A stretch of DNA of 64,000 bases from Jannaschia sp. Os4 (lineage in GTDB: Bacteria > Pseudomonadota > Alphaproteobacteria > Rhodobacterales > Rhodobacteraceae). Both the position numbers and the translations under genes were made by a program. Position 1 is the stretch's first letter. Each line of letters opens with the position of its first letter. Shown here in pieces: positions 44,242 to 59,451 of this stretch. Where the stretch lies: NCBI RefSeq assembly GCF_016820245.1, contig NZ_JAFCAR010000003.1, positions 701,001-765,000 of the forward strand, given 5' to 3'. The notes below the pieces were generated by a model. The model was not told the origin of the DNA, made no database searches, and worked only from the letters and a program-made list of their open reading frames with translations.

Positions 44242-45300
44242 TCACCGACCTATCCCCCCAGACTCGATCAGCCCGCCGATGAGCCGGATCGCAGAAGGGG
44301 ATGCGGCGAAGGTCGAATGGTTGTTCCCGCCCTCGCCATGGTCGGTAAGGTCGATCACGGTGATCCCTTGGGCGCGGAGGCGTCCAACGTCGTCGGTCGA
44401 GCCGAGCCGCTCGGTCTGTCGCGTCAGGAAGGCCGAGAGGCCGAGCGCACGATCGGCTTGGCTGACGGTCAGGACGAACCGGTCGGGTCGGGGCCCGACC
44501 CGGTCCAACTCGGACCGAAACAGCTCGATCCCGATGTCGGGCGATACGAGAACGATCCCGTTGAGCCGCAGGGCGATGCCCGGGCGCGCCGCCGACATCC
44601 GCGCCAGTGTCTCCATCGACAGGAAGGCCCCCATGGAGTGCCCGACGAGCGTGACGCGGCCGGGTACGCGGTCGATCAGATAGAGCAGGAGCGCTTCGAG
44701 ATCGGTCCGCGCCGCGAGCGCAGCATCGCGATCGGCCACGTATCCGGTCGCGCGTGCGACGGAGGGCCAATGGAAGGTGATCTGCGGCCCGCCACCCGCA
44801 CCGGCATCGACGTAGTCATGGGCGATCTGGGCGTGACGGAAGACGGACTCGGCGGCCGTGTTGTTGTAGCCGTGGACGAAGACATGGACCTCCTCGCCCG
44901 GTCCGAGGGAGGCGATGGCGGCATCGGCCAAGGCGTCTGCCGAGCCGAGATCGCGCGCCGCAGCGATCGTGAAGCTGCGGTTCGGGTCACCGCCGGGGGC
45001 ATGTTCGATCCGACCGGGACGATGGTTCGGTGGGATCGAGACGTCCACCAGCGCGGCGCTCAACCCATGTCCTCCCGAGGTCCGCAATCCGGCGATCGCG
45101 CGATCGGCGGCAAGGAGGTGGATGCGCTGCATGACGGGAGTGACATCGTTCGATGATGCGGAGATCGGTGCGACGAAGTGCATTCGGCCGCCGCAAGCCG
45201 TCACCGACGTTGCGAGGCCGCCGAGGAGGACGGCCCGGCGGGCCGGTCGGAGCTGACCGGGTCCGAACGTGACGGACCGGTGCCGTATCCGCGTCGCCAT
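44242..45300 (-). CDS. DUF900-type alpha/beta hydrolase, probable lipoprotein
   Basis: The product is 352 residues. The N-terminus is basic, then hydrophobic, ending in Val-Thr-Ala-Cys, which fits a lipobox (Cys about 36 from ATG 45300). The hydrolase part has His-Val-Phe-Val-His-Gly-Tyr-Asn and the nucleophile elbow Gly-His-Ser-Met-Gly, and a late Asn-Asn-His near the expected catalytic His. DUF900 proteins are esterase-like with unknown substrates. ATG 45300 overlaps the MscS stop by one base (TGATG); GTG 45303 is an alternative start. It is the last gene of the nine-gene array. Confidence 0.82.
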   Translation of the reverse strand: MATRIRHRSVTFGPGQLRPARRAVLLGGLATSVTACGGRMHFVAPISASSNDVTPVMQRIHLLAADRAIAGLRTSGGHGLSAALVDVSIPPNHRPGRIEHAPGGDPNRSFTIAAARDLGSADALADAAIASLGPGEEVHVFVHGYNNTAAESVFRHAQIAHDYVDAGAGGGPQITFHWPSVARATGYVADRDAALAARTDLEALLLYLIDRVPGRVTLVGHSMGAFLSMETLARMSAARPGIALRLNGIVLVSPDIGIELFRSELDRVGPRPDRFVLTVSQADRALGLSAFLTRQTERLGSTDDVGRLRAQGITVIDLTDHGEGGNNHSTFAASPSAIRLIGGLIESGGIGR

Positions 45301-46991
45301 CACGCCGCCTCCTCGACGGGACGGTCGTCGGCCGTCCGGAGGCGTCCGTCGAGGTGGAGGTTCTGGGTCGGGAACGCGAACTCCGCCCCCGCTCCTTCGA
45401 CGGCGTCCACGATCCGAAGGAACAGCTCCTCCTGGATCGCGAGATAGGCGTTCCAGTCCTCCGCCTGGACATAGGCGAAGAGTTCGACGTCCTTGCTATG
45501 TGCGCCGAGCGCGGTGAGCCGGACGCGCGCCGGATCGGGCAGGACGTCCGGATCATCATGCAGGATCGTGCGAAGCGCGGAGAGGACCATCCGCAGGGTT
45601 CGGCCGTCGGTGTCGTAGGTGAGATTGATCGTATGGTGGAAGAGGAACTGGTCCCGGTGGGTGAAGTCCTCGAGATGGAGGTTCGAGAACTCTCCGTTGG
45701 GCACGGTGACCACGGTCCGGCCCAGCGTCCGAATGCGCGTGGAGCGGATGCCGATGGCCTCGACGGTTCCGAGGGTCGGTCCGAAGCGACAGAATTCGCC
45801 CACCCGGACCGGGCGGTCGGCGATCAGCGTCACCGAGCCGATGAGGTTCTCCATGAGCTTCTGCGCGCCGAGGGCGAGGGCGAGGCCGCCTACGCCCAAC
45901 GCCGCGAGCCCCGCGGTGATGTCGATGCCGAGCGCGCGCAGGGCGATGGCCGCGAAAATCGCCACGAGCAGGGCCTTCACGACCCGCGAGAAGAAGGTGA
46001 CGGCGGAGAAGGCCGTGACCTGGCCACGTCGGGACATGCCGTCCAGAAGCGCGCCTGCCCCTGCATCGACCGCGCGCCAGAGGATCCACGCCACCGATAG
46101 CCAGAGCGCGAGGCCCGCGAGCCAATCGAGCTGGGCGCGGGCGACGACGGAGACGCCGAGGAAGCGTGCCCCGGCCGTGAAGATCAGCACGGCCAGAAGG
46201 AGACGAAGCGGCGCGCTTGACAGGGCGACGAAGCGTCCGAGACGACCGTCGCCGCCGGTGGTGTAGCGTCCGACGATCCCCCGGAAGGCCACGAGCAGCC
46301 ACGCTGCCCCGTAGGCGAAGGCAGCATATCCCAAGAGGACGAGCCAGTCCCGCGTCGGTGCGCCGAACAGCGTCGGGCCTTCTGGGAAATCGGCGATCCA
46401 GTCCCCCAGTGAGCTGTCGATGAGATCGCGCGTGTCGAGCGCGAGCATCGCCGCGATGCTCTCGTCCGAGATCCGCCAGACCTCCGTTTCGCCGCCTTCG
46501 GGCGTGAGCCCTCGCGCCGCGAGCATGGGCACGTCTTCCCCGTCGGGGGCCGCGAGGCTCCCGATGCGTTCGAGGTTCGGCGCGAGCCCGTCGTCGAGAC
46601 GTCCACTTGCGGCCATGCTCAATTCGGAGGTCGCCGTGAGATGCCCGGCCACGTCCAAGGCCGCCTGGACGCGCCGCAGCTGCAAGACGTTGAGACCCTC
46701 AACCCCTTCGGGCGCGGCGACGTATGGCTCGGACCTGCTCGGATCGCCTGCCGCAAGCGCGCCGAGGAAGCCCTCGACGAGACCGCGCGGCGTCTCCCTG
46801 CCGTGCGGGTCGATCGGGGCCTGCACAGCCTCCTCGCCTGCCGCGCCAGGCAATCCCGGGATCTGCGTCGAGACCGGCGTCGTAATCAACGCGGGAGCGA
46901 GGATCATGAGCAGCGTCGCGACCCTCCAAAAGGTCTTGCGGACCGCGGAGCTCGAGTGCCCCGATCGCCGGTGGAGGATGGATGGTCTCAT
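45300..46991 (-). CDS. MscS-family mechanosensitive channel with periplasmic N-terminal domain
   Basis: The product is 563 residues. A signal/first helix (about 22-42) is followed by a periplasmic domain of about 170 residues with an opening like NTF2-type folds (Thr-Pro-Arg-Gly-Leu-Val-Glu-Gly-Phe-Leu), then four to five helices. The MscS pore helix and beta domain contain Gly-Leu-Ala-Ala-Leu-Gly-Val-Gly-Gly-Leu-Ala-Leu-Ala-Leu-Gly and Val-Pro-Asn-Gly-Glu-Phe. The start at ATG 46991 follows GAGGA; the 47051 start lacks this. It opens under membrane tension. It lies 81 bp after the phosphatase gene. Confidence 0.88.
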   Translation of the reverse strand: MRPSILHRRSGHSSSAVRKTFWRVATLLMILAPALITTPVSTQIPGLPGAAGEEAVQAPIDPHGRETPRGLVEGFLGALAAGDPSRSEPYVAAPEGVEGLNVLQLRRVQAALDVAGHLTATSELSMAASGRLDDGLAPNLERIGSLAAPDGEDVPMLAARGLTPEGGETEVWRISDESIAAMLALDTRDLIDSSLGDWIADFPEGPTLFGAPTRDWLVLLGYAAFAYGAAWLLVAFRGIVGRYTTGGDGRLGRFVALSSAPLRLLLAVLIFTAGARFLGVSVVARAQLDWLAGLALWLSVAWILWRAVDAGAGALLDGMSRRGQVTAFSAVTFFSRVVKALLVAIFAAIALRALGIDITAGLAALGVGGLALALGAQKLMENLIGSVTLIADRPVRVGEFCRFGPTLGTVEAIGIRSTRIRTLGRTVVTVPNGEFSNLHLEDFTHRDQFLFHHTINLTYDTDGRTLRMVLSALRTILHDDPDVLPDPARVRLTALGAHSKDVELFAYVQAEDWNAYLAIQEELFLRIVDAVEGAGAEFAFPTQNLHLDGRLRTADDRPVEEAA

Positions 46992-47072
46992 GCCGGTTCC
47001 TCGGTAAGGTTCGATGCGGCCCGGCCCGACCTCGCAGACCTCGGCGGGCATCTTCGACGTCTGCGTGCCGGC

Positions 47073-48215
47073 TCAATCTCGGATGAGGGACATCAAGGTG
47101 GTCCAGTCGACCATCTGCCAACTCTCGGCGATGGCGCCGTCCTCGATCCGGTGCAGCGCGATGCCCCCGAACGCGACGTCGCGCCCCGTCGCGGGCACGC
47201 CGAAGAGGTCGCCCGTATGGCGTCCGGTCACGGTCCCCCTCACGGTGATCGTGTCGTCGGACATCTGGAGGTCGTCGATCGAGAAGTCGGCGTCCGAGAG
47301 CCCTGCGGTGATCCGCGCGATCTCGTCCAGGAATCCGCTCGTGTCTCCGTCCGGGACGGATGGTGAGGGACCGCGATCGACCCACTCGGGTGAGAGGATG
47401 CCACGCAGCGTATCGGCGTCCCCCTCGACGAGGGCGGCGTAGTAGCGCTCGACCATGTCGGTCGCGCGATCGCGCTCCAGGAGGGGCGAGGCCAGCGCGT
47501 CGGCGAAGTGGCCCACGTCGGGCTGGGCCGACTTCAAGCGAACGTAGCCGAGCACGTAGTTGTCGCGCTTAGGGTCGAGGACGAGGAATTCGCCTTCGAA
47601 GACCCTGAACTGCGTCAACTCCTCGATGTTGGTGTAATGGCTCACGACGAGCAGAGGGCCTGGCCTGGTCGCGCTACCCTCCCAGCCCGAGACGAGTGCG
47701 CGGAGCGGCGACACGTCCGTCGAGCCGCGCAGTGACAGGAGCAGGTTCAGCCCGGGCTCCGTGCGGTGGGGGATCGCCTCGGGCAGGGATGCATCGATCC
47801 GTTCCATCCCCTCGAGCAGGGCCGAGAGCGTCTGCTGGTTGCGGCACCACTGGCTGACGACGATCTCGGCGGGCAGGATGTCGTTGACGGCCATCAGCGC
47901 GCCGAGGTCGCGCATGTTGCGCGTGCCGTCGGGGCTGAGGATCCGCTGATTGGCGCAGTCGTCGGGCGCCACGCCCTTCTCGTCGAGCTTGGACCAGTCC
48001 GTCGGCCCATGCCGCATGAGGAAGACCACGTCGTCGCGCATGAACATCTCTTCGAGCTGCTGGTAGGGCTCGAAGCGGAGCGCGTCGTCGACCTCGACCG
48101 GCCCGCCCGCCTCGACGGTCATCTCCCCCATGTGGGTCGAGATCTGGCGCACCTCCTGCGCTGGCGCGGCCGTGGCCAGCAACGTGGCGGCGATCATCGT
48201 GGGAAGACGTGTCAT
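47073..48215 (-). CDS. Secreted histidine phosphatase fused to SnoaL-like domain
   Basis: The product is 380 residues with a signal peptide (about 1-19). Residues about 60-245 form a histidine-phosphatase (phosphoglycerate-mutase-like) domain: Leu-Met-Arg-His-Gly-Pro-Thr and a second catalytic His in Val-Val-Ser-His-Tyr. The C-terminal 130 residues look like a SnoaL/NTF2-type domain (Glu-Arg-Tyr-Tyr-Ala-Ala-Leu-Val-Glu-Gly-Asp ... Gly-Arg-His-Thr-Gly). It is likely periplasmic. ATG 48215 has GGAGGG upstream, and the EF-hand gene ends 12 bp before it. Substrate unknown. Confidence 0.82.
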   Translation of the reverse strand: MTRLPTMIAATLLATAAPAQEVRQISTHMGEMTVEAGGPVEVDDALRFEPYQQLEEMFMRDDVVFLMRHGPTDWSKLDEKGVAPDDCANQRILSPDGTRNMRDLGALMAVNDILPAEIVVSQWCRNQQTLSALLEGMERIDASLPEAIPHRTEPGLNLLLSLRGSTDVSPLRALVSGWEGSATRPGPLLVVSHYTNIEELTQFRVFEGEFLVLDPKRDNYVLGYVRLKSAQPDVGHFADALASPLLERDRATDMVERYYAALVEGDADTLRGILSPEWVDRGPSPSVPDGDTSGFLDEIARITAGLSDADFSIDDLQMSDDTITVRGTVTGRHTGDLFGVPATGRDVAFGGIALHRIEDGAIAESWQMVDWTTLMSLIRD

Positions 48216-48227
48216 CGTACCCTCCAG

Positions 48228-48707
48228 TCAGCGGACGAGCGCGTTGCGCATCGCGATGTTGAAGATGAAGCCAGAGAGGTACTCCTCCCGGCTCAGCGTC
48301 CCGTCGCCGTCGCGGTCGGCGTAGCGGGCGGAATGGGCGGCAGCGGCGACATGCTCCGATGGAGTGACGCGTCCGTCGTCATCGCGGTCGAAGATGTCGA
48401 AGACCACGTTGACCGTCGCGCGGAACGCCTCGTCCCGCCCGCGGAATGCGGCGAGGTCCGCGAAGCCGTATTCCCAGCCGACCATCTCGTCGCGCGTCAC
48501 GGCGCCGTCTCCGTCCGCGTCGATCGATGGGAAGACCGCTTTCGCCAACGCGTCGACCTCCGGATACGAAATCCTCCCATCCCCATCCGCATCGGCGGTT
48601 TCGGCCATGCGCTCGACCATGGCCCTCCCGTAATCAGGGGTGCCGTCGTAGCTCTCTTGCGCGGCGACGGGGGCGGCGAGCAGGATCAGGGCGATAAGGC
48701 GCATCAT
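48228..48707 (-). CDS. Secreted EF-hand calcium-binding protein
   Basis: The product is 159 residues with a signal peptide (MMRLIALILLAAPVAAQ). Four EF-hand loops start near 39, 63, 107 and 131 (for example DADGDGRISYPE and DRDGDGTLSREE). The ending Gly-Phe-Ile-Phe-Asn-Ile-Ala-Met-Arg-Asn matches the paralogue at 14484-14972. ATG 48707 overlaps the RND pump stop (ATGA) and has AAGGAG upstream, so synthesis is tied to the pump. A calcium-binding partner co-translated with an RND pump is unusual. Confidence 0.87.
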   Translation of the reverse strand: MMRLIALILLAAPVAAQESYDGTPDYGRAMVERMAETADADGDGRISYPEVDALAKAVFPSIDADGDGAVTRDEMVGWEYGFADLAAFRGRDEAFRATVNVVFDIFDRDDDGRVTPSEHVAAAAHSARYADRDGDGTLSREEYLSGFIFNIAMRNALVR

Positions 48708-51700
48708 GCCGGGGCTCCTTCCGGTTCAGGCGTGGAGTCGGCGCGGACGTCGCGGGCGAAGAGCGCCGCGTAGAGCAACGGGACGACCCCTAGGGTGAGC
48801 GCCGTGCCGACGAAGAGGCCGGCGGCCATCACGGCCGCCATGCCGTAGAAGAGCGGGTCGTTCGACAGGATCAGAGGCAGGAGTCCCAGCACCGTCGTGA
48901 GCGTGGTCATGACGATGGGGCGCAGGCGGCGGGCCGCCGCGTCGATGATCGCGTCATGGCCCGATTTTCCGTCGGCCCGCTCGATGTCGATCCGGTCGAT
49001 CAGGACGATCGCGTTGTTGAGGATGATCCCCGCCAGGGACAGCATGCCAAGTATCGGCATGAACCCGAAGTTGGCCCCGAAGAGACGCAGACCGAGGGCC
49101 ACGCCTGTGACGATCAGCGGAACGGTCGCGAGGATGACGAGCGGCCGGCGAAACGAGTTGAACTGCGCCACCAGCAGCACGACCATGATCCCGAAGCAAA
49201 GCGGCATGTTCACGAGGAGCGACGCGCGCCCTTCCGCGGATTGCGTGATAATCCCGTCGAACTCGATGGAGTGGTTCGGCGGAAGCTCGGCGCGCAGCTC
49301 GTCGAGCGCGCCCTCGATCTGCGGCGCCATGTCCTCGGCGGCGGCCTCGGTCGAACGGGCTTGGACCGTTACGGTCCGCATCAGGTTCTCCCGCTCGATC
49401 CGGGCATATCCGTTGGCGAGCCGCACGTCGGCCACCTGCGCGAGCGGAACGGCAGTGCCGTCCGCGCCGAAGACGGCGAGCGTTCGGATGCGGTCGAGAT
49501 CGGTGCGCTCGGCCTCCGAGGCACGCGCGATCACCGGGATTACGTCGTCGCCCTCGCGGTACTCGGTGACGGCGCGGCCGGAGTAGAAGGACGACATGGA
49601 CCGGGCGACGTCGGCCGAGGTCACGCCTGCGCGCCGGGCCCGGTTCTGGTCCACCTCGACCACTAGGCGTTGGATGCGGTTCTCCCAGTCCTGGCGAATG
49701 TCGATGGCCCCCGGGATCTCGGCCAAGGCCATCTCGATCCGGCCGGCCATGGCGTAGAGGAGGTCGCGATCCGGTCCCTTGACTTGGACCTCGAGGATCG
49801 AGCTGTCGGAGGGGCCGAGGAACATCGTCGTGACCCTGGCCTGGACGTCCGGCAGGGCCCGGGTCAGGTGGTCGCGCAGCTCCTCGACCGCCCGCCCGAC
49901 GTTCTCGGGGGCATCCACGTTGGCGATCAGCACCGCGCGGTTCGGCGCGGGGTCGATTGGGGTGAGCGAGAGGACGAAGCGGGGACCGCCGTAGCCGACA
50001 TAGGCGACCTGGTCCTCCAGCCAGTCGAAGCGGTCGGCCGTGAGGCTGGGAAGGAGGTCACGCACCTGCGCCTCGGTCGCGTCCGCGGTGACGCCCGCCG
50101 GAAGGTCGAGATAGGTGATGATCTGCGCGCGGTCCGACCCGGGAAAGAACCGGCTCGGCGCGGTCGCGACGCCTGCCGCGCCTCCAATGAAGCAGGCCAC
50201 GACCACGAGGCCGGAGATCAGCCGGTGCGACAGGACCCAGCCGAGGAGGCGTCGGTAGCTCGCGATCAGCGGGTCGAACATGCGCTCGTTCCACGGCCTC
50301 TTGGCGTCCGGGTCCGGTGCCGTCGCGAAGCGGTGGCAGAGGATCGGGGTGACGGTCATCGCCACCAGCCAAGAAAGGCTCAGCGCGATCGCGATCACGA
50401 TGGAGATCGACCGGGTGTATTCGCCAGCCACGTGCTCCGCGAGCATGAGCGGCAGGAACACGAGGACCGTCGTGGCCGTCGACGAGAGGAGCGGGAGCGA
50501 CAGTTCCTTGCCGACGCCGTCCAACGCGGCGTCGCGATCGTCGCCCTGCGCGAGACGGGTCTTGAAGTCCTCGGCGACCACGACCCCGCCATCCACGAGA
50601 AGGCCGAGCGCGATCACCAGCGTGGCGAGGCTCATCCGCTCGAGCGGCAGGCCGAGGAAGCCCATGACCGCCAAGGTCGCCAACATCACGATCGGGACGA
50701 TCGCGCCCACGATGAAGCCGGTGCGGAAGCCGAGCAGCAGCACGACCACGGCCAGCACGATGCCGAGCGTCTGGAGGACGCTGATCGTGACGCCGTAGAC
50801 CGCACGCTCGACGGGGACGGATTGGTCAGTGATCGCGTCCAGCGCCGTGCCGACGGGCAGGTCGGCGCGCAAGGCCTCCAGCCGCTCCTCGAGAAGGGGG
50901 ATGAAGGCGAGGACGTTCTGGCCCTCCTGCATCGACACGGCGAGCACGATCGCGGGCTCCCCTTGGTAGAACGCGGCCTGCGGGATCGGATCGGCATAGT
51001 CCCGGCGCACCTCGGCCACGTCGCGCAGCGCGATCGTGCCGCCATCCGGGGTGCGGATCAGCGCATCGCGCAGATCGTCCAAGGTCCGGAAATCGCCGGT
51101 GGGCTCGATCAGGAAGGCCTTGTCCCCGGTGTCGATCTCTCCGCCCGGGCGGATGACGTTCTGGGCGCGCAAAGCGCCGATGATCGCCTCCGTCGAGATG
51201 CCCAGCTCGGCCAGTTGCGTGTTGCGCGTCTCGACGTAGATGCGCTCGGGGCGAAGGCCGCTGACCTCGACCCTCTTGGCGCCGGGCACGGCGACCAGCA
51301 TGTCGCGGACGTGGTCGGAGAGTTCCTCAAGCTCGGCCAGCGTGTAGTCCGGGCCTCGCAGGGCCACGGTCATGACCGCCACGTCGCCCACGTCGTCCGT
51401 CACCACGGGCGGCGTGGCGCCGTCGGGGAGATCCGGGGCCGCTCGTTCGACGAGAACCCGCAGATCGTCCCAGATCTGGTCCAGTTCGAAGAAGCGGTCG
51501 GCCACCTCGACGTGGATGATCGACAAGCCGTTGGTCGACGAGGACCGGATCTCCTCGACCTCCGGCATCGTGTTGATCGCCACTTCGAGGGGCTTCGTGA
51601 CCAGTTGCTCCATCCGTTCGGGCGACAGGCCGGGATAGCGTGTCGTGACGATGGCCTCGCGGATCGTGATCGCGGGGTCCTCCTGCGCGGGCAGCGTCAG

Positions 51701-51784
51701 GTAGGAATAGGCGCCGAACGCCATCAGGATGGCGACGAGGAAGAAGACGAGGCGGGGATAGCGGGAGGCGGGGCGGGTCAGCAT
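48704..51784 (-). CDS. RND-family efflux pump inner-membrane subunit
   Basis: The product is about 1026 residues with the RND layout: TM1, large periplasmic loop, TM2-6, second loop, TM7-12. The opening Leu-Pro-Ala-Gln-Glu-Asp-Pro-Ala and Ser-Pro-Glu-Arg-Met-Glu are typical of the AcrB/hydrophobe-type clade. In TM4 the usual Asp-Asp proton relay reads Val-Asp-Gly-Gly, keeping only the first Asp; in TM10 an Asn-Asn pair stands where AcrB has Lys-Asn. The start is taken as ATG 51784, four bases after the fusion-protein stop; ATG 51808 would overlap it. No outer-membrane channel gene is present. Confidence 0.9.
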   Translation of the reverse strand: MLTRPASRYPRLVFFLVAILMAFGAYSYLTLPAQEDPAITIREAIVTTRYPGLSPERMEQLVTKPLEVAINTMPEVEEIRSSSTNGLSIIHVEVADRFFELDQIWDDLRVLVERAAPDLPDGATPPVVTDDVGDVAVMTVALRGPDYTLAELEELSDHVRDMLVAVPGAKRVEVSGLRPERIYVETRNTQLAELGISTEAIIGALRAQNVIRPGGEIDTGDKAFLIEPTGDFRTLDDLRDALIRTPDGGTIALRDVAEVRRDYADPIPQAAFYQGEPAIVLAVSMQEGQNVLAFIPLLEERLEALRADLPVGTALDAITDQSVPVERAVYGVTISVLQTLGIVLAVVVLLLGFRTGFIVGAIVPIVMLATLAVMGFLGLPLERMSLATLVIALGLLVDGGVVVAEDFKTRLAQGDDRDAALDGVGKELSLPLLSSTATTVLVFLPLMLAEHVAGEYTRSISIVIAIALSLSWLVAMTVTPILCHRFATAPDPDAKRPWNERMFDPLIASYRRLLGWVLSHRLISGLVVVACFIGGAAGVATAPSRFFPGSDRAQIITYLDLPAGVTADATEAQVRDLLPSLTADRFDWLEDQVAYVGYGGPRFVLSLTPIDPAPNRAVLIANVDAPENVGRAVEELRDHLTRALPDVQARVTTMFLGPSDSSILEVQVKGPDRDLLYAMAGRIEMALAEIPGAIDIRQDWENRIQRLVVEVDQNRARRAGVTSADVARSMSSFYSGRAVTEYREGDDVIPVIARASEAERTDLDRIRTLAVFGADGTAVPLAQVADVRLANGYARIERENLMRTVTVQARSTEAAAEDMAPQIEGALDELRAELPPNHSIEFDGIITQSAEGRASLLVNMPLCFGIMVVLLVAQFNSFRRPLVILATVPLIVTGVALGLRLFGANFGFMPILGMLSLAGIILNNAIVLIDRIDIERADGKSGHDAIIDAAARRLRPIVMTTLTTVLGLLPLILSNDPLFYGMAAVMAAGLFVGTALTLGVVPLLYAALFARDVRADSTPEPEGAPA

Positions 51785-51788
51785 CGCG

Positions 51789-53312
51789 TCACCCGTCGTA
51801 GCGGGCATAGTCCCGCCCCAAGAGTTCGACGCGCTCCCCGTCCTCGAGGAAGGCGACTCCGCGGGTGACGATGACCGATCCGTCCAGACCGTCCCCGGCC
51901 ACGAGCAGGTCGGATCCCTCGAAGGACAGGATTTCGATGGGGACTCTGCTCAGCCGCCCGGTCGCGTCGTCGTGGACGAAGACATGGGTCTCGTCGCCCT
52001 CGCCGGGCAGGACGGCGGTGGCAGGGATGCGGAGGCCCGCCCCGCCTTCGGCGTTGACGGAAAGCCGGACCTCCGCGCTCATCCCCGCGCGCAGCGCATC
52101 GGGGGCATCCTCGATTCGTAGCGTCACCGGAAAGAGGGACGAGCCGGATGCCCGGGCACCGATCTGATCGACGACGCCGGTGACGGGCCCGCGCAGGGCG
52201 GTGATCTCGACATCTTCGCGCGCGCCGATCTCCATCTGGCCGAGAAGGGTTTCGGGCACGTCGAACGAGATTTCGAACCCGTCCTCCTGGCCTTGGATGT
52301 CGAAGACCGGCTCACCAGCGGTCACGATCTGCGAGGGTTCGACGCGCCGCTCGGCCACGCGCCCCGCATAGGGCGCGCGCAGCACGACGTCCTCCAGGCG
52401 ATCCTCGGCCCGCTCGACCGCCGAGATCGCTACGTCGAGACGGGCACGGGCGGCGTCGCGGCGCAGGCGCTCGTTCTCGACGGCCGCCGCGGCTACGACG
52501 TCGCGGTCGAAGAGGGTCGATTGGCGGACGAAGTCGGCCTCGGCTTCTGCCAGCGCGGCCTGGGCCTCGACGCGGTTCGCCTCGGCCTGATCGAGAGACT
52601 GGCGCAGCGCGGTGTCGTCGAGACGGGCGAGGACATCGCTATATTCGAAGCGGTCGCCGGTCGAGACCTCGACCTCGACGACGCGGCCCGATTCCTCGAA
52701 GGACAGCGGCGCGCGCCGAGCCGCTTCGACGGAGCCCGACAGGCGACGTTCGGCTTGGCCGTCCACCGCTTCGATCCGGGTCCAGACGACCGGGCGCGCG
52801 GGAGGTTCGACCGAGTCCGGTTCGGGGCGGGCGAGGGGAGCGGGAAGCTCGATCCGGTCCGTCTCGACGGCGACCTGTTGGATGACGGAATAGGCCGTCG
52901 CCATCCGGACGCGATCCAACTGGCTCATCGCGCCGGGGATCGGTCCCGCGAAGAGCAACGTGACGGACGTGAGGGCCAGAACGAGGCCTTGGCCGACGCC
53001 GAGCGCACCGCCGGCCAAGCGCGAGACCCACCCCTTCGCTGGGGAGACGCCGCGCTCGACCGCGCTCCGTCCGATCCGGCTGAGGAGGAACGCGCCGAAG
53101 ACCAAGAGGCCGAGCGCGATCAAGGGCCATGGCGCGGGCGGATCGAGTGGTGCGAGACGCGGACCGAAGACGAGCACAAACGCGGCCACGCCCGCCGTCG
53201 CGACGAGAGCGACCAAGCTCCGGATCGCGCCACGGGACAGCCCGAGCAGCGCGAGCGTCGCGATGCCGCCCAAGAGGACGGCATCGACGGGGGTGAGGTC
53301 CGACGGGCTCAT
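51789..53312 (-). CDS. CvpA-like membrane domain fused to RND membrane fusion protein
   Basis: The product is 507 residues. Residues 1-125 hold about four membrane helices resembling CvpA (Asp-Ala-Val-Leu-Leu..., Leu-Ser-Arg-Gly-Ala-Ile-Arg, and Trp-Val-Ser-Arg-Leu-Ala-Gly-Gly-Ala-Leu-Gly). From about 175 a HlyD/AcrA-type fusion protein follows: first lipoyl half (about 186-232), coiled coil (233-308), second lipoyl half with Leu-Arg-Ala-Pro-Tyr-Ala-Gly-Arg-Val (about 311-319), beta barrel and membrane-proximal domain. Ordinary fusion proteins have a single anchor or lipid. ATG 53312 overlaps the DoxX stop (ATGA). It partners the RND pump next to it. Confidence 0.82.
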   Translation of the reverse strand: MSPSDLTPVDAVLLGGIATLALLGLSRGAIRSLVALVATAGVAAFVLVFGPRLAPLDPPAPWPLIALGLLVFGAFLLSRIGRSAVERGVSPAKGWVSRLAGGALGVGQGLVLALTSVTLLFAGPIPGAMSQLDRVRMATAYSVIQQVAVETDRIELPAPLARPEPDSVEPPARPVVWTRIEAVDGQAERRLSGSVEAARRAPLSFEESGRVVEVEVSTGDRFEYSDVLARLDDTALRQSLDQAEANRVEAQAALAEAEADFVRQSTLFDRDVVAAAAVENERLRRDAARARLDVAISAVERAEDRLEDVVLRAPYAGRVAERRVEPSQIVTAGEPVFDIQGQEDGFEISFDVPETLLGQMEIGAREDVEITALRGPVTGVVDQIGARASGSSLFPVTLRIEDAPDALRAGMSAEVRLSVNAEGGAGLRIPATAVLPGEGDETHVFVHDDATGRLSRVPIEILSFEGSDLLVAGDGLDGSVIVTRGVAFLEDGERVELLGRDYARYDG

Positions 53313-53698
53313 GCGGACGGGCCTCGGGGGCGGCGCGCCCACCAGACCGTCCCCGTGACGAGAAGGAGGACGAGTGCCGGAACGAACGACCCGCCGATTA
53401 GGGCGACATGCGTGTAGATCGCCCCGACCATCACGGTCGCGAGCAGCGCGCCGCCGATCCAGGCCGTGGCGGGGATCAGCAGAAGGATCGCGCCCCCGAC
53501 CTCGAGCAGGCCGGTGAGGTAACGGAACCACTGTCCCATGCCGATCTGGTCGAACAGGGCCACCATGCTCTCGGCACCGATCAGCTTTGAACCACCGGCG
53601 GCGAGGAAGGCGAGGGCCGCGAGGACTTGGAACGCCCAGAGGGTAAGGTTCTGCCATTTGGACGTCGCGGGCCGGGCGGCGGGTTCGAAGGTGGTCAT
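53309..53698 (-). CDS. DoxX-family membrane protein
   Basis: The product is 129 residues with four membrane helices after a short cytoplasmic start. It matches the small DoxX/DoxD-like family: Ala-Gly-Gly-Ser-Lys-Leu near helix 1, then Gly-Leu-Leu-Glu-Val-Gly-Gly-Ala in helix 2. DoxX-like proteins recur in bacterial redox and thiol-stress operons. ATG 53698 follows GAGGAG, 22 bp after the flavoprotein gene. Confidence 0.87.
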   Translation of the reverse strand: MTTFEPAARPATSKWQNLTLWAFQVLAALAFLAAGGSKLIGAESMVALFDQIGMGQWFRYLTGLLEVGGAILLLIPATAWIGGALLATVMVGAIYTHVALIGGSFVPALVLLLVTGTVWWARRPRGPSA

Positions 53699-53720
53699 CG
53701 GAAGTCTCCTCTCTGCGGGA

Positions 53721-55124
53721 TCAGGCGGCCTTTGCCGCGGCGTCGTCCTCGACGCGCTGGTGCAGCGGCTCGTCGGCCATGCCGAGGCCGATCATCTCCT
53801 CGGCGATGGAGGGATGGAGCGGCATGGTCAGGTGCAGCTCGTTCGCGGTGAGGCCCGCATGGAGCGCCATCGCGCCGAGCTGCGCGGCCTCGGAGGCGTG
53901 CGGGCCGAAGAAGTGGAAGCCGAGGAGCCGCCCGTCGCCGCGCGCGACCACCGCCTTCATGAAGACGTCCATGTCGGAGCCGGACACGAGGGCTGCGAGC
54001 GGACGGAACGACGTGCGCCGCTCGACGACGTCGTGCCCTTGGTCTCGCGCCTCGTCGGCCGTCAGCCCGACGCTCGCGCATTCCGGCGTGGTGAAGGCGG
54101 CCGTCGGAACGAGATCGGGACGCGGCAGCGGATCGTCCTCGCCCGTGAGAAGATCGACGACCCGACGCGCGCCACGAACGGCCACGGGGGTGAGGGCGAT
54201 GGGCTCGCAGACGTCGCCGACCGCGCGGATCGAGGGGACGGAGGTCCGGCCGTCGTCGTCGACGACGATGTGGCCGCGCTCGGTGGTCTCGATGCCCACG
54301 GTCCCGAGATGCAGCGCGTCCGTGTTCGGCGCGCGACCGACGGCCATCAGCACCTCGCCGTAGGCATCGTCGCCCGTTCCCTCGCCATCGAGGCGCAGGC
54401 CCTCGGCGTTTCGGTCGACCGCATCGACGGAGGCACCGAGCCGAACGGTGATGCCCTGCTTGCGCATCGCGTCGAGCAGAAGGCCGGACACCTCGGCGTC
54501 GAAGGGCTTGATGAGGCGATCGCCGCGCTCGAGGATCGTGACGTCGACCCCGAAGCGCGCCAGCATGCAGGCGAACTCCACGGCGATGTAACCCCCGCCG
54601 ACGATCGCCATGCGCTCCGGAAGCGCGGTCAGCGTGAAGAGATCGTCCGAGGTGATGCAGTGCTCCGCCCCTGGAAGATCCGGAATCATCGGGCGTGCAC
54701 CCGTCGCGATCAGGATCGCGTTAGTCCTGAATATGTCGCTGTCACCGGTGCAGACCGCGTCGGGCCCGATCGGGCGGGCGGCGGACTGGACGAGCGCGAT
54801 GCCGGCCTTTCGCAGCCTGTCGGCGTGGAAGCCCGAGAGCCGATCGACCTCGCCGATCACCGCGTCCCGCAGCGCGGGCCAGTCGAACGTGACCCCGTCG
54901 TGCCGCCAGCCGAGTTGCCGCATCTCGGCGGCGGCGTCCGACATGCGGGCGGCATGGACGAGCAGCTTCTTCGGGACGCAGCCGGCGTTCACGCAGGTGC
55001 CCCCGACATGGGTGCCCTCGAAGACGACGACGGACAGGCCCGCCTCGGCGGCACGCCGGGCCGCCGCCATTCCGCCGGAGCCGGCACCGATCACGGCGAG
55101 GTCGAATGGGGTCGAACGGGTCAT
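53721..55124 (-). CDS. Glutathione-reductase-like pyridine nucleotide-disulfide oxidoreductase
   Basis: The product is 467 residues. FAD motif Gly-Ala-Gly-Ser-Gly-Gly (13-18), redox-active Cys44-x4-Cys49 in Gly-Gly-Thr-Cys-Val-Asn-Ala-Gly-Cys-Val-Pro-Lys-Lys, NAD(P) motif Gly-Gly-Gly-Tyr-Ile-Ala, and C-terminal His-Pro-Ser-Ile-Ala-Glu-Glu. The Val-Asn-x-Gly-Cys-Val-Pro-Lys-Lys form is that of glutathione reductases. Its neighbour encodes a glutaredoxin-containing fusion, which suggests it recycles glutathione or a related thiol for that protein. GGAGG precedes ATG 55124. A mercuric-reductase role is less likely: no N-terminal metal-binding domain is present. Confidence 0.88.
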   Translation of the reverse strand: MTRSTPFDLAVIGAGSGGMAAARRAAEAGLSVVVFEGTHVGGTCVNAGCVPKKLLVHAARMSDAAAEMRQLGWRHDGVTFDWPALRDAVIGEVDRLSGFHADRLRKAGIALVQSAARPIGPDAVCTGDSDIFRTNAILIATGARPMIPDLPGAEHCITSDDLFTLTALPERMAIVGGGYIAVEFACMLARFGVDVTILERGDRLIKPFDAEVSGLLLDAMRKQGITVRLGASVDAVDRNAEGLRLDGEGTGDDAYGEVLMAVGRAPNTDALHLGTVGIETTERGHIVVDDDGRTSVPSIRAVGDVCEPIALTPVAVRGARRVVDLLTGEDDPLPRPDLVPTAAFTTPECASVGLTADEARDQGHDVVERRTSFRPLAALVSGSDMDVFMKAVVARGDGRLLGFHFFGPHASEAAQLGAMALHAGLTANELHLTMPLHPSIAEEMIGLGMADEPLHQRVEDDAAAKAA

Positions 55125-55196
55125 GGTGGAACCTCCGGATGAAAGGGAGAGGCGCGACCGCCGGGGGGAGAGGGGACGTCGGCGGTCGCGCGGGGG

Positions 55197-56882
55197 TCAG
55201 GCGACCTGGGACAGGTCGCCGCCCGCCGCCGCGCGATCGCCGCGCAGCGGATAGCGGATGGCCAAGGTGTCGAGCGGGAGCCGATGCTCGCGCAGGAACG
55301 CATCGACCTGCGGCTCCACCTTCGGCATCGCGATGGCCGAGAAGCGCTGGATCATCGAGGCCATCGCGCAGACCGTGATGAGATGGACCAGCTCGGTCGG
55401 GTCGTAGGCGTCGACGGCGGGCTGGACCCATGCGCGCGGCGTCGTCAGCGGAACCTGCGCCGAAAGCCATGCGAGCTTGAGTGCGGCGCGCTCGGCCTCG
55501 TCGAAGAGATCCTCCGCGTCGGGTCGATCCTTCGCGGCGTCGAAGGCGTGACGCACGCGCTCGACGGCACGCTCGGTGCGACCCGCGGCATGCCACGCGA
55601 GCCAGCCCTCGGAGGCGGCGAGGTAGTCGTTGCCCTTGGCCACATGGGAGACCCGCGCCATCAGATGCTTGAGCTCCGGCGCGATGGACACGTCGCCCGC
55701 GTCCTCGTCGGTCATCACGCCGACGTAGAAGCGCGCGTGCAGCGGACGGAGCGGCAGGGGCCACTCGGCCATCCATGCGGGCTCCATCCCGAGCTTCGCC
55801 TCGGCGTAGCGCGCGGGGCCGCCCGCGGTGATCGCATCCTTGCCGTAATGGGCCAGCATACGCGCCATGGAGGGGCCGCCCTCGGGGATGTCGTGGTCGA
55901 GGTTGCCCTTGGGGCCATCGTCCGCGCCGTGGCGCCCGGTCTCGATGCCCGCCCCGGACTCGGCCTTCTCGGCCCATTCCGCCTCGACCTTCACGCCGGT
56001 AAGGTCGTTGAACACGTTGAGGAAGCCGAACGCGGCGGCGATCATCGAGGCGGCCTCGACGTTGGCGTCGGCGCCGAGCTTCGTGAAGCGCGCCTCGTCG
56101 GCATAGCCGTGCACGAGGGCGAGGTCGTCCTCCGTCACCTCGTTTGTCGACGAATGGGCCACGAGTTCGGCCAAGGCGGCCTCGAAGGGCCCGAAGGTTC
56201 CCGAGTGGTCGCCCCTCCGGGCCCGGTCGATCGCCTTCGCATAGCCGGCGGAATCGTCCTCGCCCACCGAGGCGGAGTGGACCTGGCAATAATTGCACCC
56301 TTGGGCGTTCGACGTGGCGTAGCCGAGCGCGTTCATCACTTCGCTGCCCGTCACCTTCTTGCCACCGCCGATGGCGCCGGCGTTGTGGCAGTAGACGAAC
56401 TGGCGGTAGGCGACCTCCGGCCAATGGTACTGGTAGTAGAAGCAGTTCGGCCAGAAGCCGAAGAACTCCTTGTACATCCGCAGGATCGGCTGGTCCTCCG
56501 GCACGTCGGAGGTCGACCCGTCGACCTCGGGGATGACGTCGCGCAGCTTGAGGTCTTCCGCCCCCTCGCCGACCGCCGCGTCCGACGGGATCGACAGATC
56601 CATCGGCCCGTCCGCGCGGGCCGCCAACGGGATCAGCCGTTCCGCCGCGCGGAGCGCCGAGACGTCGCCGGAGCCGTTCACATGCGTGTCTCCGACGAAG
56701 GTCTGCGGCACGGTTGAGACGCCGGAGAGAAAGACCGCGAGGTTCGCGTTGCGGTCGGAGGCCGTGACGTCGACCTCGCCGTAGGGGAGGCTCGCCTCCG
56801 CGAGGACGTCCTTCACCTTGGCGCAGTAGGGGCAGTCGGGCTTCGTGAAGATCTGGATCGGTTCGTCGGCTCGGTCGGTCAT
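55197..56882 (-). CDS. Glutaredoxin fused to AhpD/carboxymuconolactone-decarboxylase-like protein
   Basis: The product is 561 residues. Residues 1-90 are a glutaredoxin with active site Cys17-Pro-Tyr-Cys20 and cis-Pro in Thr-Val-Pro (57-59). From about 135 an AhpD-like alkylhydroperoxidase/CMD region follows, with Gly-Cys196-Asn-Tyr-Cys199-x2-His202; a second, Cys-poor helical repeat of similar size fills residues about 370-540. AhpD reduces peroxides or peroxiredoxin partners through a Cys-x-x-Cys. It is first in the nine-gene array, divergent from a LysR regulator, and followed after 72 bp by a glutathione-reductase-like gene. A self-contained glutathione-linked peroxidase is the favoured idea, unproven. 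Confidence 0.82.
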   Translation of the reverse strand: MTDRADEPIQIFTKPDCPYCAKVKDVLAEASLPYGEVDVTASDRNANLAVFLSGVSTVPQTFVGDTHVNGSGDVSALRAAERLIPLAARADGPMDLSIPSDAAVGEGAEDLKLRDVIPEVDGSTSDVPEDQPILRMYKEFFGFWPNCFYYQYHWPEVAYRQFVYCHNAGAIGGGKKVTGSEVMNALGYATSNAQGCNYCQVHSASVGEDDSAGYAKAIDRARRGDHSGTFGPFEAALAELVAHSSTNEVTEDDLALVHGYADEARFTKLGADANVEAASMIAAAFGFLNVFNDLTGVKVEAEWAEKAESGAGIETGRHGADDGPKGNLDHDIPEGGPSMARMLAHYGKDAITAGGPARYAEAKLGMEPAWMAEWPLPLRPLHARFYVGVMTDEDAGDVSIAPELKHLMARVSHVAKGNDYLAASEGWLAWHAAGRTERAVERVRHAFDAAKDRPDAEDLFDEAERAALKLAWLSAQVPLTTPRAWVQPAVDAYDPTELVHLITVCAMASMIQRFSAIAMPKVEPQVDAFLREHRLPLDTLAIRYPLRGDRAAAGGDLSQVA

Positions 56883-56911
56883 GTCGGGCTCCGCGTTTCA
56901 GGGTTGCCCAA

Positions 56912-56923
56912 ACATTGCGATGT
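56912..56923. promoter_or_regulatory. Possible LysR-type binding site
   Basis: ACAT-TGCG-ATGT is a short inverted repeat in the 127-bp spacer between the LysR gene and the glutaredoxin-AhpD gene, where a LysR dimer would be expected to bind. Only 4-bp arms, so weak. Confidence 0.3.
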
Positions 56924-57009
56924 AAGCCGTCCCCGGATAGTGACGGAACCCGAACGGGCCGTTCTCGAAGCGGAACGACCCGAGAGGAACGGATACGGCG
57001 AGCCGTGCA

Positions 57010-57966
57010 TTGAACCCATCGGCCTCATCACCCGGAACGGACCCGGACGTCGCGTCGAGCTATTCGATTGACGATCTCCGGCTCTTCGCCTTGGTGGCGG
57101 ATGCAGGGTCCATGAGCGCGGCGGCGCGGCGGCACGGGATCGCGAAATCCGTCCTTTCCCGCGCGGTCGGCAAGATGGAGGGCGCGGCGGGCGGGCCGCT
57201 CTTCGACCGCACCCATGGCGGCATGGTCCCGACCAGCCTCGGGCGCGGCCTCCTGCCGGTGGCGAACCGGGCGCTGGAGGTCGCGAGGGACGCGCAGGAG
57301 GCGATGCGTTCCGCGCAGGGAACGCCTCAGGGCACCCTGCGCATCGCCGCCTCGGCCTTGTCGGGCCAGAAGATCGTTGCGCCCGCGATCGCGCGCATGG
57401 CGCAGCTCCACCCGCAGGTCGCCACGACGCTCGTCGTGACCGGGCACGGCCCTGATCCGATGGAGGGCGATCTCGACCTCGTCCTACGGATCGGCTCGCC
57501 ACCGCAGCCCTACCTTGTCTCCCGAAAGCTGATCGCCTCGCGGCTCGTTCCCTACGTCCACCGCACGGCCGCCGCTCGCATCGACCTGAATGACGTGGCT
57601 GCGGTCGAAGGAATGGGACGGATCGTCATCGCCGTCGAAGGTGTCTCCGCCGACTGGGAACTCTCGGACGAGCACGGAAACATCCGCATCCTCCGAAGCA
57701 GAGCGCTGGTGAAGGTGGGAGATCCGACCGTCGCGCTCGGGATCCTTACCGCGGGCTCGGGCGTGGCCCTCATTCCCGAGGTCTATGGTGGTCCTCTCGT
57801 CCGCGCGGGGGTGCTGGTGCGGGCCCTCCCGAATTGGATCGGCCCCCAGATGGAGATCCGGGCCGTGATGCCGCCGCGTCGCGCGGCGATCCCCGCGGTC
57901 GCCGTCTTCCTCGATATCCTGATGGAGCACGGACGAGCGCTCGCGGAAGACCTGGTTCGGCCGTAG
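57010..57966 (+). CDS. LysR-family transcriptional regulator
   Basis: The product is 318 residues. The helix-turn-helix (about 20-65) reads Leu-Val-Ala-Asp-Ala-Gly-Ser-Met-Ser-Ala-Ala-Ala-Arg-Arg-His. The C-terminal effector domain has the usual two-lobed substrate-binding fold, with Gly-Asp-Pro-Thr-Val-Ala-Leu-Gly-Ile-Leu and Gly-Val-Ala-Leu-Ile-Pro. The start is TTG 57010; no in-frame ATG or GTG exists upstream of the DNA-binding domain. It is divergent from the nine-gene redox/efflux array and is its likely regulator. A redox-sensing OxyR role is possible but the typical Cys pair is not evident. Confidence 0.87.
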   Translation: MNPSASSPGTDPDVASSYSIDDLRLFALVADAGSMSAAARRHGIAKSVLSRAVGKMEGAAGGPLFDRTHGGMVPTSLGRGLLPVANRALEVARDAQEAMRSAQGTPQGTLRIAASALSGQKIVAPAIARMAQLHPQVATTLVVTGHGPDPMEGDLDLVLRIGSPPQPYLVSRKLIASRLVPYVHRTAAARIDLNDVAAVEGMGRIVIAVEGVSADWELSDEHGNIRILRSRALVKVGDPTVALGILTAGSGVALIPEVYGGPLVRAGVLVRALPNWIGPQMEIRAVMPPRRAAIPAVAVFLDILMEHGRALAEDLVRP

Positions 57967-58226: not shown

Positions 58227-58697
58227 CTAGCGCCCCTTCCGGACGACATCATCCTCCCTGCCCTCATGATCGCTTGCGCAATGCGCGTGATCGGCCAGCG
58301 TCTCGATCACGCGGCATTCCGCGACGGCTCCGCCCTCGTTCGCCTGAACGCAGCCCTCGACCATGCGGACCAGCTCGCGGCGCAGCCCCTCCAGCCGGGC
58401 GATCCGGCTCTCGACGTCCGCGAGGTGCCGCCGCGCTATGACGTCGGCCCGGTCGCAGGGCCGGTCGGGATGGTCGGCGAGGTCCAGAAGTTCGCGCGTG
58501 GCGTCGAGCGAGAAGCCGAGGTCGCGTGCGTGGCGCAGGAAGCCCAGCCGCCGCCGGGCAGCCGCGTCGAAGAGGCGCTGGTTGCCCTCGCTGCGCGCGG
58601 CGGGCGGCAGGAGGCCGATCTTCTCGTAGTGCCGCACGGTGCCCACGGCGATCCCAGTCTCGCGGGCGAGTTGGCCCACGGTGAAGCGCTCCGTCAT
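58227..58697 (-). CDS. MerR-family metal-responsive regulator
   Basis: The product is 156 residues. The MerR helix-turn-helix opens Phe-Thr-Val-Gly-Gln-Leu-Ala-Arg-Glu-Thr-Gly and contains Arg-His-Tyr-Glu-Lys-Ile-Gly-Leu-Leu. A long dimer helix follows, then Cys residues at 81, 116, 128 and 140, with Ala-Glu-Cys-Arg-Val-Ile, a pattern like ZntR/CadR/PbrR thiol metal sensors. GGGAGAAAG precedes ATG 58697. It is divergent from the CDF exporter, and the shared spacer carries the MerR-type promoter. Confidence 0.9.
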   Translation of the reverse strand: MTERFTVGQLARETGIAVGTVRHYEKIGLLPPAARSEGNQRLFDAAARRRLGFLRHARDLGFSLDATRELLDLADHPDRPCDRADVIARRHLADVESRIARLEGLRRELVRMVEGCVQANEGGAVAECRVIETLADHAHCASDHEGREDDVVRKGR

Positions 58698-58728
58698 CGT
58701 CTTTCTCCCTCCACGTCCACATCGGGGC

Positions 58729-58759
58729 TTGAAGCTACAACCGTTGTAGCCCCTACCTG
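58729..58759 (+). promoter_or_regulatory. MerR-type promoter/operator for the CDF exporter
   Basis: The -35-like TTGAAG (58729-58734) and -10-like TACCTG (58754-58759) are separated by 19 bp. Between them is a perfect inverted repeat GCTACAAC-C-GTTGTAGC (58734-58750). Over-long spacing with a central dyad is the hallmark of MerR-activated promoters. It reads toward the CDF gene at 58789. Confidence 0.8.
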
Positions 58760-58788
58760 TGGTCCCGAACAAGATTCGGGAGACGATC

Positions 58789-59451
58789 ATGAGCGGTGGA
58801 TGCTGCGGGCACGGGCCCGAGATGAAGGACGCCTCGGCCCCGTTCCGGCGCGCGCTCTGGGCGGTGATCGCGATCAACGCCACCATGTTCGCCGTCGAGA
58901 TGACGGCCGGCGCGCTGGCGGGCAGCCAGGCGCTCAAGGCCGACGCGCTCGACTTCGCCGCCGACACCGCGACCTACGCGATCAGCCTCGCGGTGCTGGG
59001 AGCGTCGTTGCGCGTGCGCGCCACGGCGGCGCTGGCCAAGGGCACGAGCCTCGCGCTGATGGGCTTGTGGGTGTTCGGGTCGACCATCTGGGCCGCGCTC
59101 GGGCCGGGCCTGCCGGACGCCCCGGTGATGGGCGTGGTGGGGCTGCTGGCGCTCGCGGCGAACCTCGCCTCGGTCCTGCTACTCCTGCGCTTCCGCGACG
59201 GCGACGCGAACGTGCGCTCGGTGTGGCTGTGCTCGCGCAACGACGCCATCGGCAACGTGGCCGTCGTGGCTGCCGCCCTCGGCGTGTTCGGCACCGGCAC
59301 GGCCTGGCCTGACCTCGCAGTCGCGGGCGTCATGTCGGTGCTGTTTCTGTCGGCCTCCGTCTCGATCCTGCGGCAGGCCTTGGGCGAGCTGAAAGAGGCG
59401 AGCAACGCTGCTGGCGGCCACGAGGCACATACAGCGGAGCAACACTCATGA
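58789..59451 (+). CDS. Cation diffusion facilitator-type metal exporter
   Basis: The product is 220 residues. The N-terminus Met-Ser-Gly-Gly-Cys-Cys-Gly-His can bind metal. Six membrane helices follow, with CDF-like acidic pairs: Asp-Ala-Leu-Asp-Phe-Ala-Ala-Asp in helix 2 and Arg-Asn-Asp-Ala-Ile-Gly-Asn in helix 5. The usual C-terminal cytoplasmic domain is missing; a short His-containing tail remains. It would export a divalent metal such as zinc, cadmium or cobalt. ATG 58789 follows GGGAGA, 30 bp behind the MerR-type promoter, so metal induction by the divergent MerR protein is expected. Confidence 0.88.
   Translation: MSGGCCGHGPEMKDASAPFRRALWAVIAINATMFAVEMTAGALAGSQALKADALDFAADTATYAISLAVLGASLRVRATAALAKGTSLALMGLWVFGSTIWAALGPGLPDAPVMGVVGLLALAANLASVLLLLRFRDGDANVRSVWLCSRNDAIGNVAVVAAALGVFGTGTAWPDLAVAGVMSVLFLSASVSILRQALGELKEASNAAGGHEAHTAEQHS

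Follow-up and report, generated by a model that had tools for sequence, protein, structure and literature searches.

A glutaredoxin fused to two CMD domains, one without a CxxC motif, heads a LysR-flanked nine-gene array in Jannaschia sp. Os4

The window analysed here is a 64-kb stretch of the Jannaschia sp. Os4 genome (G000, contig positions C3:701001-765000), in which nine intact open reading frames (ORFs) lie on the minus strand from 56882 to 44242, with a LysR-family regulator gene divergent from the first of them across 127 bp. From gene 1 to gene 9 the gaps are 72, 22, -4, -20, -4, 12, 21 and -4 bp; four of the eight junctions overlap and the widest gap is 72 bp. The gene order, single strand, four overlaps and divergent regulator described in the initial annotation were all verified, and its ceiling of 81 bp for the gaps holds with either start model, the maximum being 72 bp with the outer MscS start and 81 bp if that gene starts at 46991. 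The -20 overlap vanishes if the RND permease starts at 51784 rather than 51808. The nine genes are probably co-transcribed. A consensus scan of 44-58 kb neither showed nor excluded a single transcript: it returned two promoter-like sites (mean 0.8 in shuffles) and one terminator-like site (mean 3.4), every one of them intragenic; one of the promoter-like sites lies within the RND gene in the orientation of the operon.

Gene 1 encodes a glutaredoxin (Grx) followed by two CMD-type domains, here called CMD-A and CMD-C, and within the searches made it represents a new architecture in the CMD/AhpD superfamily. Domain assignments are from Pfam, supplemented by curated NCBIfam/TIGR models, each with its own cut-off. 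The features of gene 1 and its regulator are as follows.

55197..56882 (-), gene 1, Grx::CMD-A::CMD-C, 561 aa (Pfam Glutaredoxin; Bmp8 matches in both halves; AF2, Foldseek and VIA-align)
56613..56861 (-), Grx domain, residues 8-90 (Pfam), with CPYC at residues 17-20 (56823-56834)
55947..56507 (-), CMD-A, residues 126-312, the putative active half, with C196-x-Y-C199-x-x-H202 at 56277-56297
55248..55847 (-), CMD-C, residues 346-545, the half without CxxC, with the conserved motif ELKHLM..VS....G[NH]DYL.A.EG
56883..57009 (no strand), the 127 bp between the divergent genes, where the LysR operator and the promoters presumably lie, containing the perfect palindrome GAACGGCCCGTTC
57010..57966 (+), LysR-family regulator, divergent from gene 1 (Pfam HTH_1 and LysR_substrate)

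The Grx domain matches PF00462 at 51.9 bits against a cut-off of 22.9. The remainder of the protein, labelled AhpD in the initial annotation, is indeed AhpD-like, but residues 100-561 match no Pfam family at E ≤ 1, and by sequence and fold this part is a Bmp8-like CMD domain present twice; hhalign relates CMD-A to CMD-C with P 95 and E 2.8e-8. We counted conservation over five full-length sequences, gene 1 of the window and four homologues. C17, C20, C196, Y198, C199 and H202 are invariant in all five, the Grx motif reading CPYC in four and CVHC in the copy from genome G1131. CMD-C is about as constrained as CMD-A despite having no CxxC, because the numbers of invariant positions are alike (52 of 200 and 49 of 187, with 17 of 83 in Grx); its C505 is invariant, and positions 418 and 421 hold N or H, and L, respectively. 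The AF2 model retains helices 402-416 and 419-432 of CMD-C; its quality is low over Grx (blocks 26-55) and over residues 121-170 (50-66).

Among solved structures, a profile search of the PDB returned only Bmp8, its best match, and one AhpD-core protein at E < 0.001, and Foldseek also ranked Bmp8 as the top fold. Bmp8 (tetrabromopyrrole debrominase, PDB 6OHI/6OHJ, CMD family) shares with gene 1 the CMD fold and the CxxCxxH site, and reads CMYCKSH in the alignment, residues that we take to be its active site, in agreement with the title of a C82A entry; its chemistry is presumably debromination, a thiol-dependent removal of halogen from an aromatic. Bmp8 is a single domain of 195 residues, whereas gene 1 joins two such domains in one chain, the second without CxxC, and adds Grx. 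The CxxCxxH spacing recurs in five single-domain relatives (L081 and L083-L086), and two others (L087 and L088) have CxxCxxxH. A Grx fused in the same chain is also found in the Haemophilus influenzae hybrid Prx5-Grx (1NM3), presumably a thiol reductase fed by that Grx; there, however, the partner is a peroxiredoxin and not a CMD domain, and Grx sits at the opposite end (match to residues 168-237 of 241).

AhpD of M. tuberculosis and AhpD-core proteins (2PRR) share the fold, the CxxC and the Tyr between the cysteines. In gene 1 the His lies at +6 from the first Cys rather than +7, and the proton-relay Glu at -12 is absent, the AhpD-type spacing being derived from the 2PRR residue numbers in PMC4674687; position 184 (-12) holds N, N, M, M and H in the five sequences and position 181 (-15) E, P, P, P and D. 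We therefore do not place gene 1 among the AhpD alkylhydroperoxidases.

The arrangement of the chain resembles that of Sestrins, which are stress proteins of animals. As in hSesn2, two AhpD-like halves are predicted in the same order and arrangement, and, judged by residues, the catalytic Cys would lie in the N-terminal half with none in the C-terminal half; unlike Sestrins, gene 1 keeps both CxxC cysteines and carries Grx. According to two sources, hSesn2 uses C125, Y127 and H132 and reduces cumene hydroperoxide but not H2O2 (PMC4674687), the Sestrin C domain has a non-catalytic role (PMC4674687, PMC11429811), and Sestrins are defined by an electronegative hinge replacing a helix of the C half (PMC11429811). 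The C half of gene 1 keeps its helix-turn-helix and has no DDYDY hinge. Gene 1 is accordingly not a Sestrin, because that helix is predicted to be retained and the motif in place of the hinge is G[NH]DYL, in all five sequences. Nor was there a Sestrin match at the sequence level, either in Pfam for residues 100-561 at E ≤ 1 or among the six PDB sequences found with the profile at E ≤ 10.

Bacterial fused AhpD-like pairs have been described (YciW and proteins of Rokubacteria, Corynebacterium and Comamonas; PMC11429811). In section 15 of this 2024 review, which looked for bacterial Sestrin analogues, two of these fused dimers, from Corynebacterium and Comamonas, have one cysteine-less half, in both cases the N-terminal one, with the cysteines in the C-terminal half; YciW has cysteines in both halves, and that section mentions no Grx for any of them. 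The gene 1 family instead has the Sestrin order, and its fusion names a likely reductant, so that a bacterial protein now allows tests of which electron donor a pseudo-dimeric AhpD uses and why a dead half is kept. The second AhpD-like half, with no CxxC, and the Sestrin-like layout go beyond the initial annotation and deserve attention.

Full-length gene 1 was found in five genomes altogether: G000, G098, G468, G783/L032 and G1131. Queries were gene 1, its C-terminal part or a profile of that part, over samples that overlap and with differing limits; each search scored only candidates from a loose first pass, and misses are possible. Among 120 relatives of G000, a sample that counted G000 itself and 19 congeners, 99 matched at E ≤ 0.001, full length only in G000 and G098 and partially, mostly over Grx, in the other 97; none of the 19 same-genus genomes searched had a full-length copy. 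Larger samples gave G000 and G098 (385 genomes of its class, E ≤ 1e-10), G000, G468 and G783 (394 of its family, E ≤ 1e-20) and, across almost the whole profile, G000, G098 and G1131 (398 of its phylum, E ≤ 1e-8), with G895 and G1069 matching one half only in the phylum sample. At E ≤ 1e-20, 110 relatives of G468 yielded G468 and G098, and 118 relatives of G1131 yielded G1131 alone. A pattern scan of named genomes, covering close relatives only, found one locus, L032, from an uncultured Rhodobacteraceae bacterium; L032 and G783 (C16) are counted as one genome.

The other eight genes of the array are listed below.

53721..55124 (-), gene 2, glutathione-reductase-like flavoprotein, 467 aa, C44-VNAG-C49 (Pfam)
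53309..53698 (-), gene 3, DoxX-like membrane protein (Pfam DoxX_2)
51789..53312 (-), gene 4, CvpA-like membrane domain fused to an RND periplasmic adaptor (MFP) (Pfam Colicin_V and HlyD_3)
48704..51808 (-), gene 5, RND efflux permease (Pfam ACR_tran, E 2.7e-179)
48228..48707 (-), gene 6, EF-hand protein, signal-peptide-like N-terminus by eye (Pfam EF-hand)
47073..48215 (-), gene 7, histidine-phosphatase-like (RHG)::SnoaL, signal-peptide-like N-terminus by eye (Pfam SnoaL)
45300..47051 (-), gene 8, MscS-type channel with an N-terminal extension (Pfam MS_channel 2nd/3rd/1st)
44242..45303 (-), gene 9, DUF900 alpha/beta hydrolase, lipobox-like VTAC by eye (Pfam PF05990, E 8.3e-43)

The predicted domain content stood up to Pfam, with matches to Grx, Pyr_redox_2/Pyr_redox_dim, DoxX, Colicin_V with HlyD_3, ACR_tran, EF-hand, SnoaL, MscS, DUF900 and LysR, and His_Phos_1 slightly under its cut-off (19.2 bits against 21.7). 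For gene 2 the top listed model was NCBIfam glutathione-disulfide reductase (408.8 bits, cut-off 480) and the nearest solved chains were 4dna and 2r9z, glutathione and glutathione-amide reductases; the own genome encodes four more near-full-length glutathione-reductase (GR)-like flavoproteins, 30-36% identical. Gene 4 scores 30.3 bits for Colicin_V (cut-off 29.3) and also matches TIGR01730; 4 of 120 family genomes match this fusion, full length only in G000, with G468 matching over 162-388. Permease and adaptor of a putative tripartite RND pump are present, with no outer-membrane channel among the nine genes. Gene 6 was rejected as a lanmodulin (44.7 bits against a model cut-off of 135). The first 240 aa of the MscS protein (46330-47051, -) match no Pfam family at E ≤ 1, and the G468 match (48%) spans residues 1-567; 7 of 120 family genomes match at E ≤ 1e-30, the best after G000 being G468 (4e-146, next 8e-91).

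Three of the nine genes had been regarded as unusual fusions, of which phosphatase::SnoaL is not unique: it occurs near full length at three sites in the own genome (the window, C8 and C3:778019, besides two further phosphatase matches without the SnoaL part), in G468 and on a Jannaschia plasmid. Among 120 family genomes four match, G468 at 4e-143 and the next at 3e-81. The C8 and C3 copies lie near short-chain dehydrogenases, and C8 also near an aldo/keto reductase; by eye these dehydrogenases and the aldo-keto reductase have twin-arginine-like N-termini (L058:3837-9429 in C8, L059:12645-13766 in C3), so that NAD(P) enzymes of cytosolic type beside the phosphatase::SnoaL paralogues are apparently exported. 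On plasmid unnamed4 of Jannaschia sp. W003 (L091, 19009-20112) a copy 63% identical, annotated 'ester cyclase', adjoins a MarR-MFP-RND set whose RND is merely 27% identical.

We read the neighbourhoods of the four other loci by tblastn with ten window proteins, the nine genes and LysR. Seven of the ten have homologues in G468, five in G783/L032, two in G098, and in G1131 gene 1 alone. In G468, where the 20 kb read belong to a 45.5-kb contig, these are LysR (42%), gene 1 (56%), DoxX (45%), MscS (48%) and phosphatase::SnoaL (59%), with partial matches to GR (51%, residues 88-455 only) and MFP (46%, 174-384) and none to RND, EF-hand or DUF900; a patatin-DUF3734 gene, an SDR and a second patatin are added. 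The GR-like ORF there (L061:6205-7386) lacks the redox-cysteine segment (no CVNAGC) and overlaps the gene 1 ORF, whose C-terminal tail is longer there; in our own reading, transposase-like genes lie on one flank and a TniB-like ATPase beyond MFP. G783/L032 has LysR (62%), a second LysR (47%), gene 1 (71%) and DoxX (58%), partial matches to GR (73%, residues 2-74 only) and RND (70%, 402-1034 only), no tblastn match to MFP, and extra genes for OsmC, a short-chain fatty acid transporter, a patatin and, by eye, a patatin-like lipoprotein. In G098, LysR (51%) and gene 1 (55%) are followed by an integrase-like gene (by eye). The G1131 copy (37%; 38 kb read) lies between two Rieske oxygenases (Pfam Rieske and VanA_C); a PDB search with one of the two gave 7qwt and dicamba demethylase as the closest chains. 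Close by are genes for a PhyH protein and for an AraC regulator, the latter scoring best against the AndR model (69 bits, cut-off 350). The coordinates in G1131 are L097:13983-17141 and L098:954-2009, and the Rieske flanks are a possible clue to substrate.

The array is therefore not private to the strain: G468 groups seven of the ten families and G783/L032 groups five. Co-conservation of the whole does not extend further. Among the five loci read, the complete, rare nine-gene set occurs only in Os4; elsewhere the GR gene is disrupted or not found, and the RND gene is truncated or not found. All that G098 retains is LysR with gene 1, and in G1131 gene 1 stands in a Rieske oxygenase context apart from every other member. 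Gene 1 is thus constant across the loci, LysR almost constant and the other genes variable. What holds together best is the divergent pair of LysR and gene 1, at four of the five loci (the window, L032/G783, L033/G098 and L061/G468); no perfect palindrome of 13-19 bp was found in the three other intergenic regions compared.

Gene 1 most likely reduces an oily or reactive compound using glutathione. More specifically, we lean slightly towards a self-contained, glutathione-fed thiol reductase of a small hydrophobic substrate, backed by GR and accompanied by accessory export and envelope genes. C196 of CMD-A would attack the substrate (an organic peroxide, a haloaromatic or another thiol-reactive compound), C199 would resolve the intermediate as a disulfide, the fused Grx (C17/C20) would reduce that disulfide using glutathione, and the flavoprotein of gene 2 would recycle oxidised glutathione. 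We infer each step of this route, NADPH -> gene 2 -> glutathione -> Grx C17/C20 -> CMD-A C196/C199 -> substrate, from domain fusion and adjacency, and NADPH use is assumed. CMD-C would form the second half of a Sestrin-like pseudo-dimer, perhaps binding a ligand or holding the pocket in shape, and LysR would turn the array on. Accessory export and envelope functions, variable among relatives, may be served by DoxX, the CvpA::MFP-RND pump and the phosphatase::SnoaL, EF-hand, MscS and DUF900 proteins, these last four presumably exported.

Several observations weigh against this route. GR is the weakest step, because it is broken or not found in relatives (no cysteine region in the G468 ORF, residues 2-74 only in G783, no GR in what was read of G098 and G1131) and four other GR-like flavoproteins of the genome could serve; for the same reason the GR partner is not essential. 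G1131 has no LysR, DoxX or pump in the 38 kb read. The AF2 model is too poor around Grx to place it within reach of CMD-A. Identity to Bmp8 is ~20-24%, and VIA-align superposes Bmp8 on CMD-C (model 351-536 or 272-536) rather than on CMD-A, so the CMD-A link draws on sequence and the Sestrin alignment; Sestrin2 ranks 14th in Foldseek alone (E 0.47, root-mean-square deviation 15.6). The AhpD-type Glu and CxxCxxxH spacing are not present. The LysR-flanked array of thiol-redox, efflux and envelope genes exists as first described; the proposal that it detects, removes and pumps out an electrophile as one nine-gene system goes beyond the evidence, with the whole set at one of five loci and parts broken or not found in relatives.

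Two narrower forms of the glutathione-fed reductase, about level with each other, differ in substrate. In the first, possible though short of an even chance and overlapping in likelihood with the broader reading, gene 1 would be a Sestrin/AhpD-type peroxidase of lipid hydroperoxides, with lipid hydrolases, OsmC, MscS and the pump handling membrane damage. The Sestrin-like layout, the activity of hSesn2 on cumene hydroperoxide, and the OsmC and patatin genes of G783/L032 and patatins of G468 are consistent with it; CxxCxxH without an AhpD-type Glu makes gene 1 Bmp8-like rather than AhpD-like, AhpC and OsmC are not among the nine genes, and the G1131 context is one of aromatic oxygenases. The second, somewhat doubtful, is that an aromatic compound is reduced, by dehalogenation or otherwise, through Bmp8-like chemistry with a built-in reductant. 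The PDB profile hits, the top Foldseek rank and identical CxxCxxH of Bmp8, the two Rieske oxygenases of G1131, whose C-terminal domains are of the vanillate-demethylase type, and the sub-cut-off AndR match point this way, yet that Rieske context occurs at one of five loci, and no halogen-related gene was recognised in the neighbourhoods read, by eye and with no systematic search. Were the substrate a haloaromatic, the fusion would also hint at how Bmp8-type chemistry is supplied with electrons in the cell.

A more specific and rather unlikely version is a Sestrin-like division of labour, in which a thiol-active N half and a conserved ligand-binding or sensing C half, served by their own Grx and glutathione alone, would reduce and possibly dehalogenate a hydrophobic aromatic or peroxide under LysR control. 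It is improbable that the array is instead a chance run of accessory genes with separate roles in a variable region: the complete array occurs only here, relatives are decayed, the 19 same-genus genomes searched have no full-length gene 1 and all four genus-mates read have other genes on that side of a flanking sugar-ABC gene, but seven of ten families stand together in another genus (G468), where the MscS and phosphatase::SnoaL matches are far above those of other family genomes sampled, and the spacing is tight and overlapping. We take the co-location in G468 to exceed chance, a judgement made without a formal test. Least probable is a regulatory protein analogous to Sestrin, with CMD-C binding a metabolite and the Grx/CMD-A half as redox switch, for which the conservation of CMD-C, its long near-invariant motif and the non-catalytic Sestrin C domain speak, against the missing electronegative hinge, the fully retained thiol residues of CMD-A and, to our knowledge, no bacterial partner.

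The cluster lies in a variable stretch. Of 22 genomes, six carry the sugar-ABC gene, namely G000 and 5 of 13 congeners. Four of those five congeners were read, the gene of the fifth lying at a contig end, and in these four that side of the gene holds no cluster and no common neighbour. The lower GC noted for the cluster is real (69.1% against 76.0% at 1-22 kb and 71.2% at 22-30 kb), but low GC does not mark it, because the flanks are likewise low (70.7% at 36-44 kb, 66.8% at 58-60.7 kb). By eye, a divergent MerR-like regulator and a cation-transporter-like gene lie beside LysR (58227-59451), and ~3 kb beyond the cluster a type III restriction-like helicase (876 aa) occupies lower-GC DNA (64%) at 60765-63973 (-), together with a piece that may belong to the helicase's methyltransferase.

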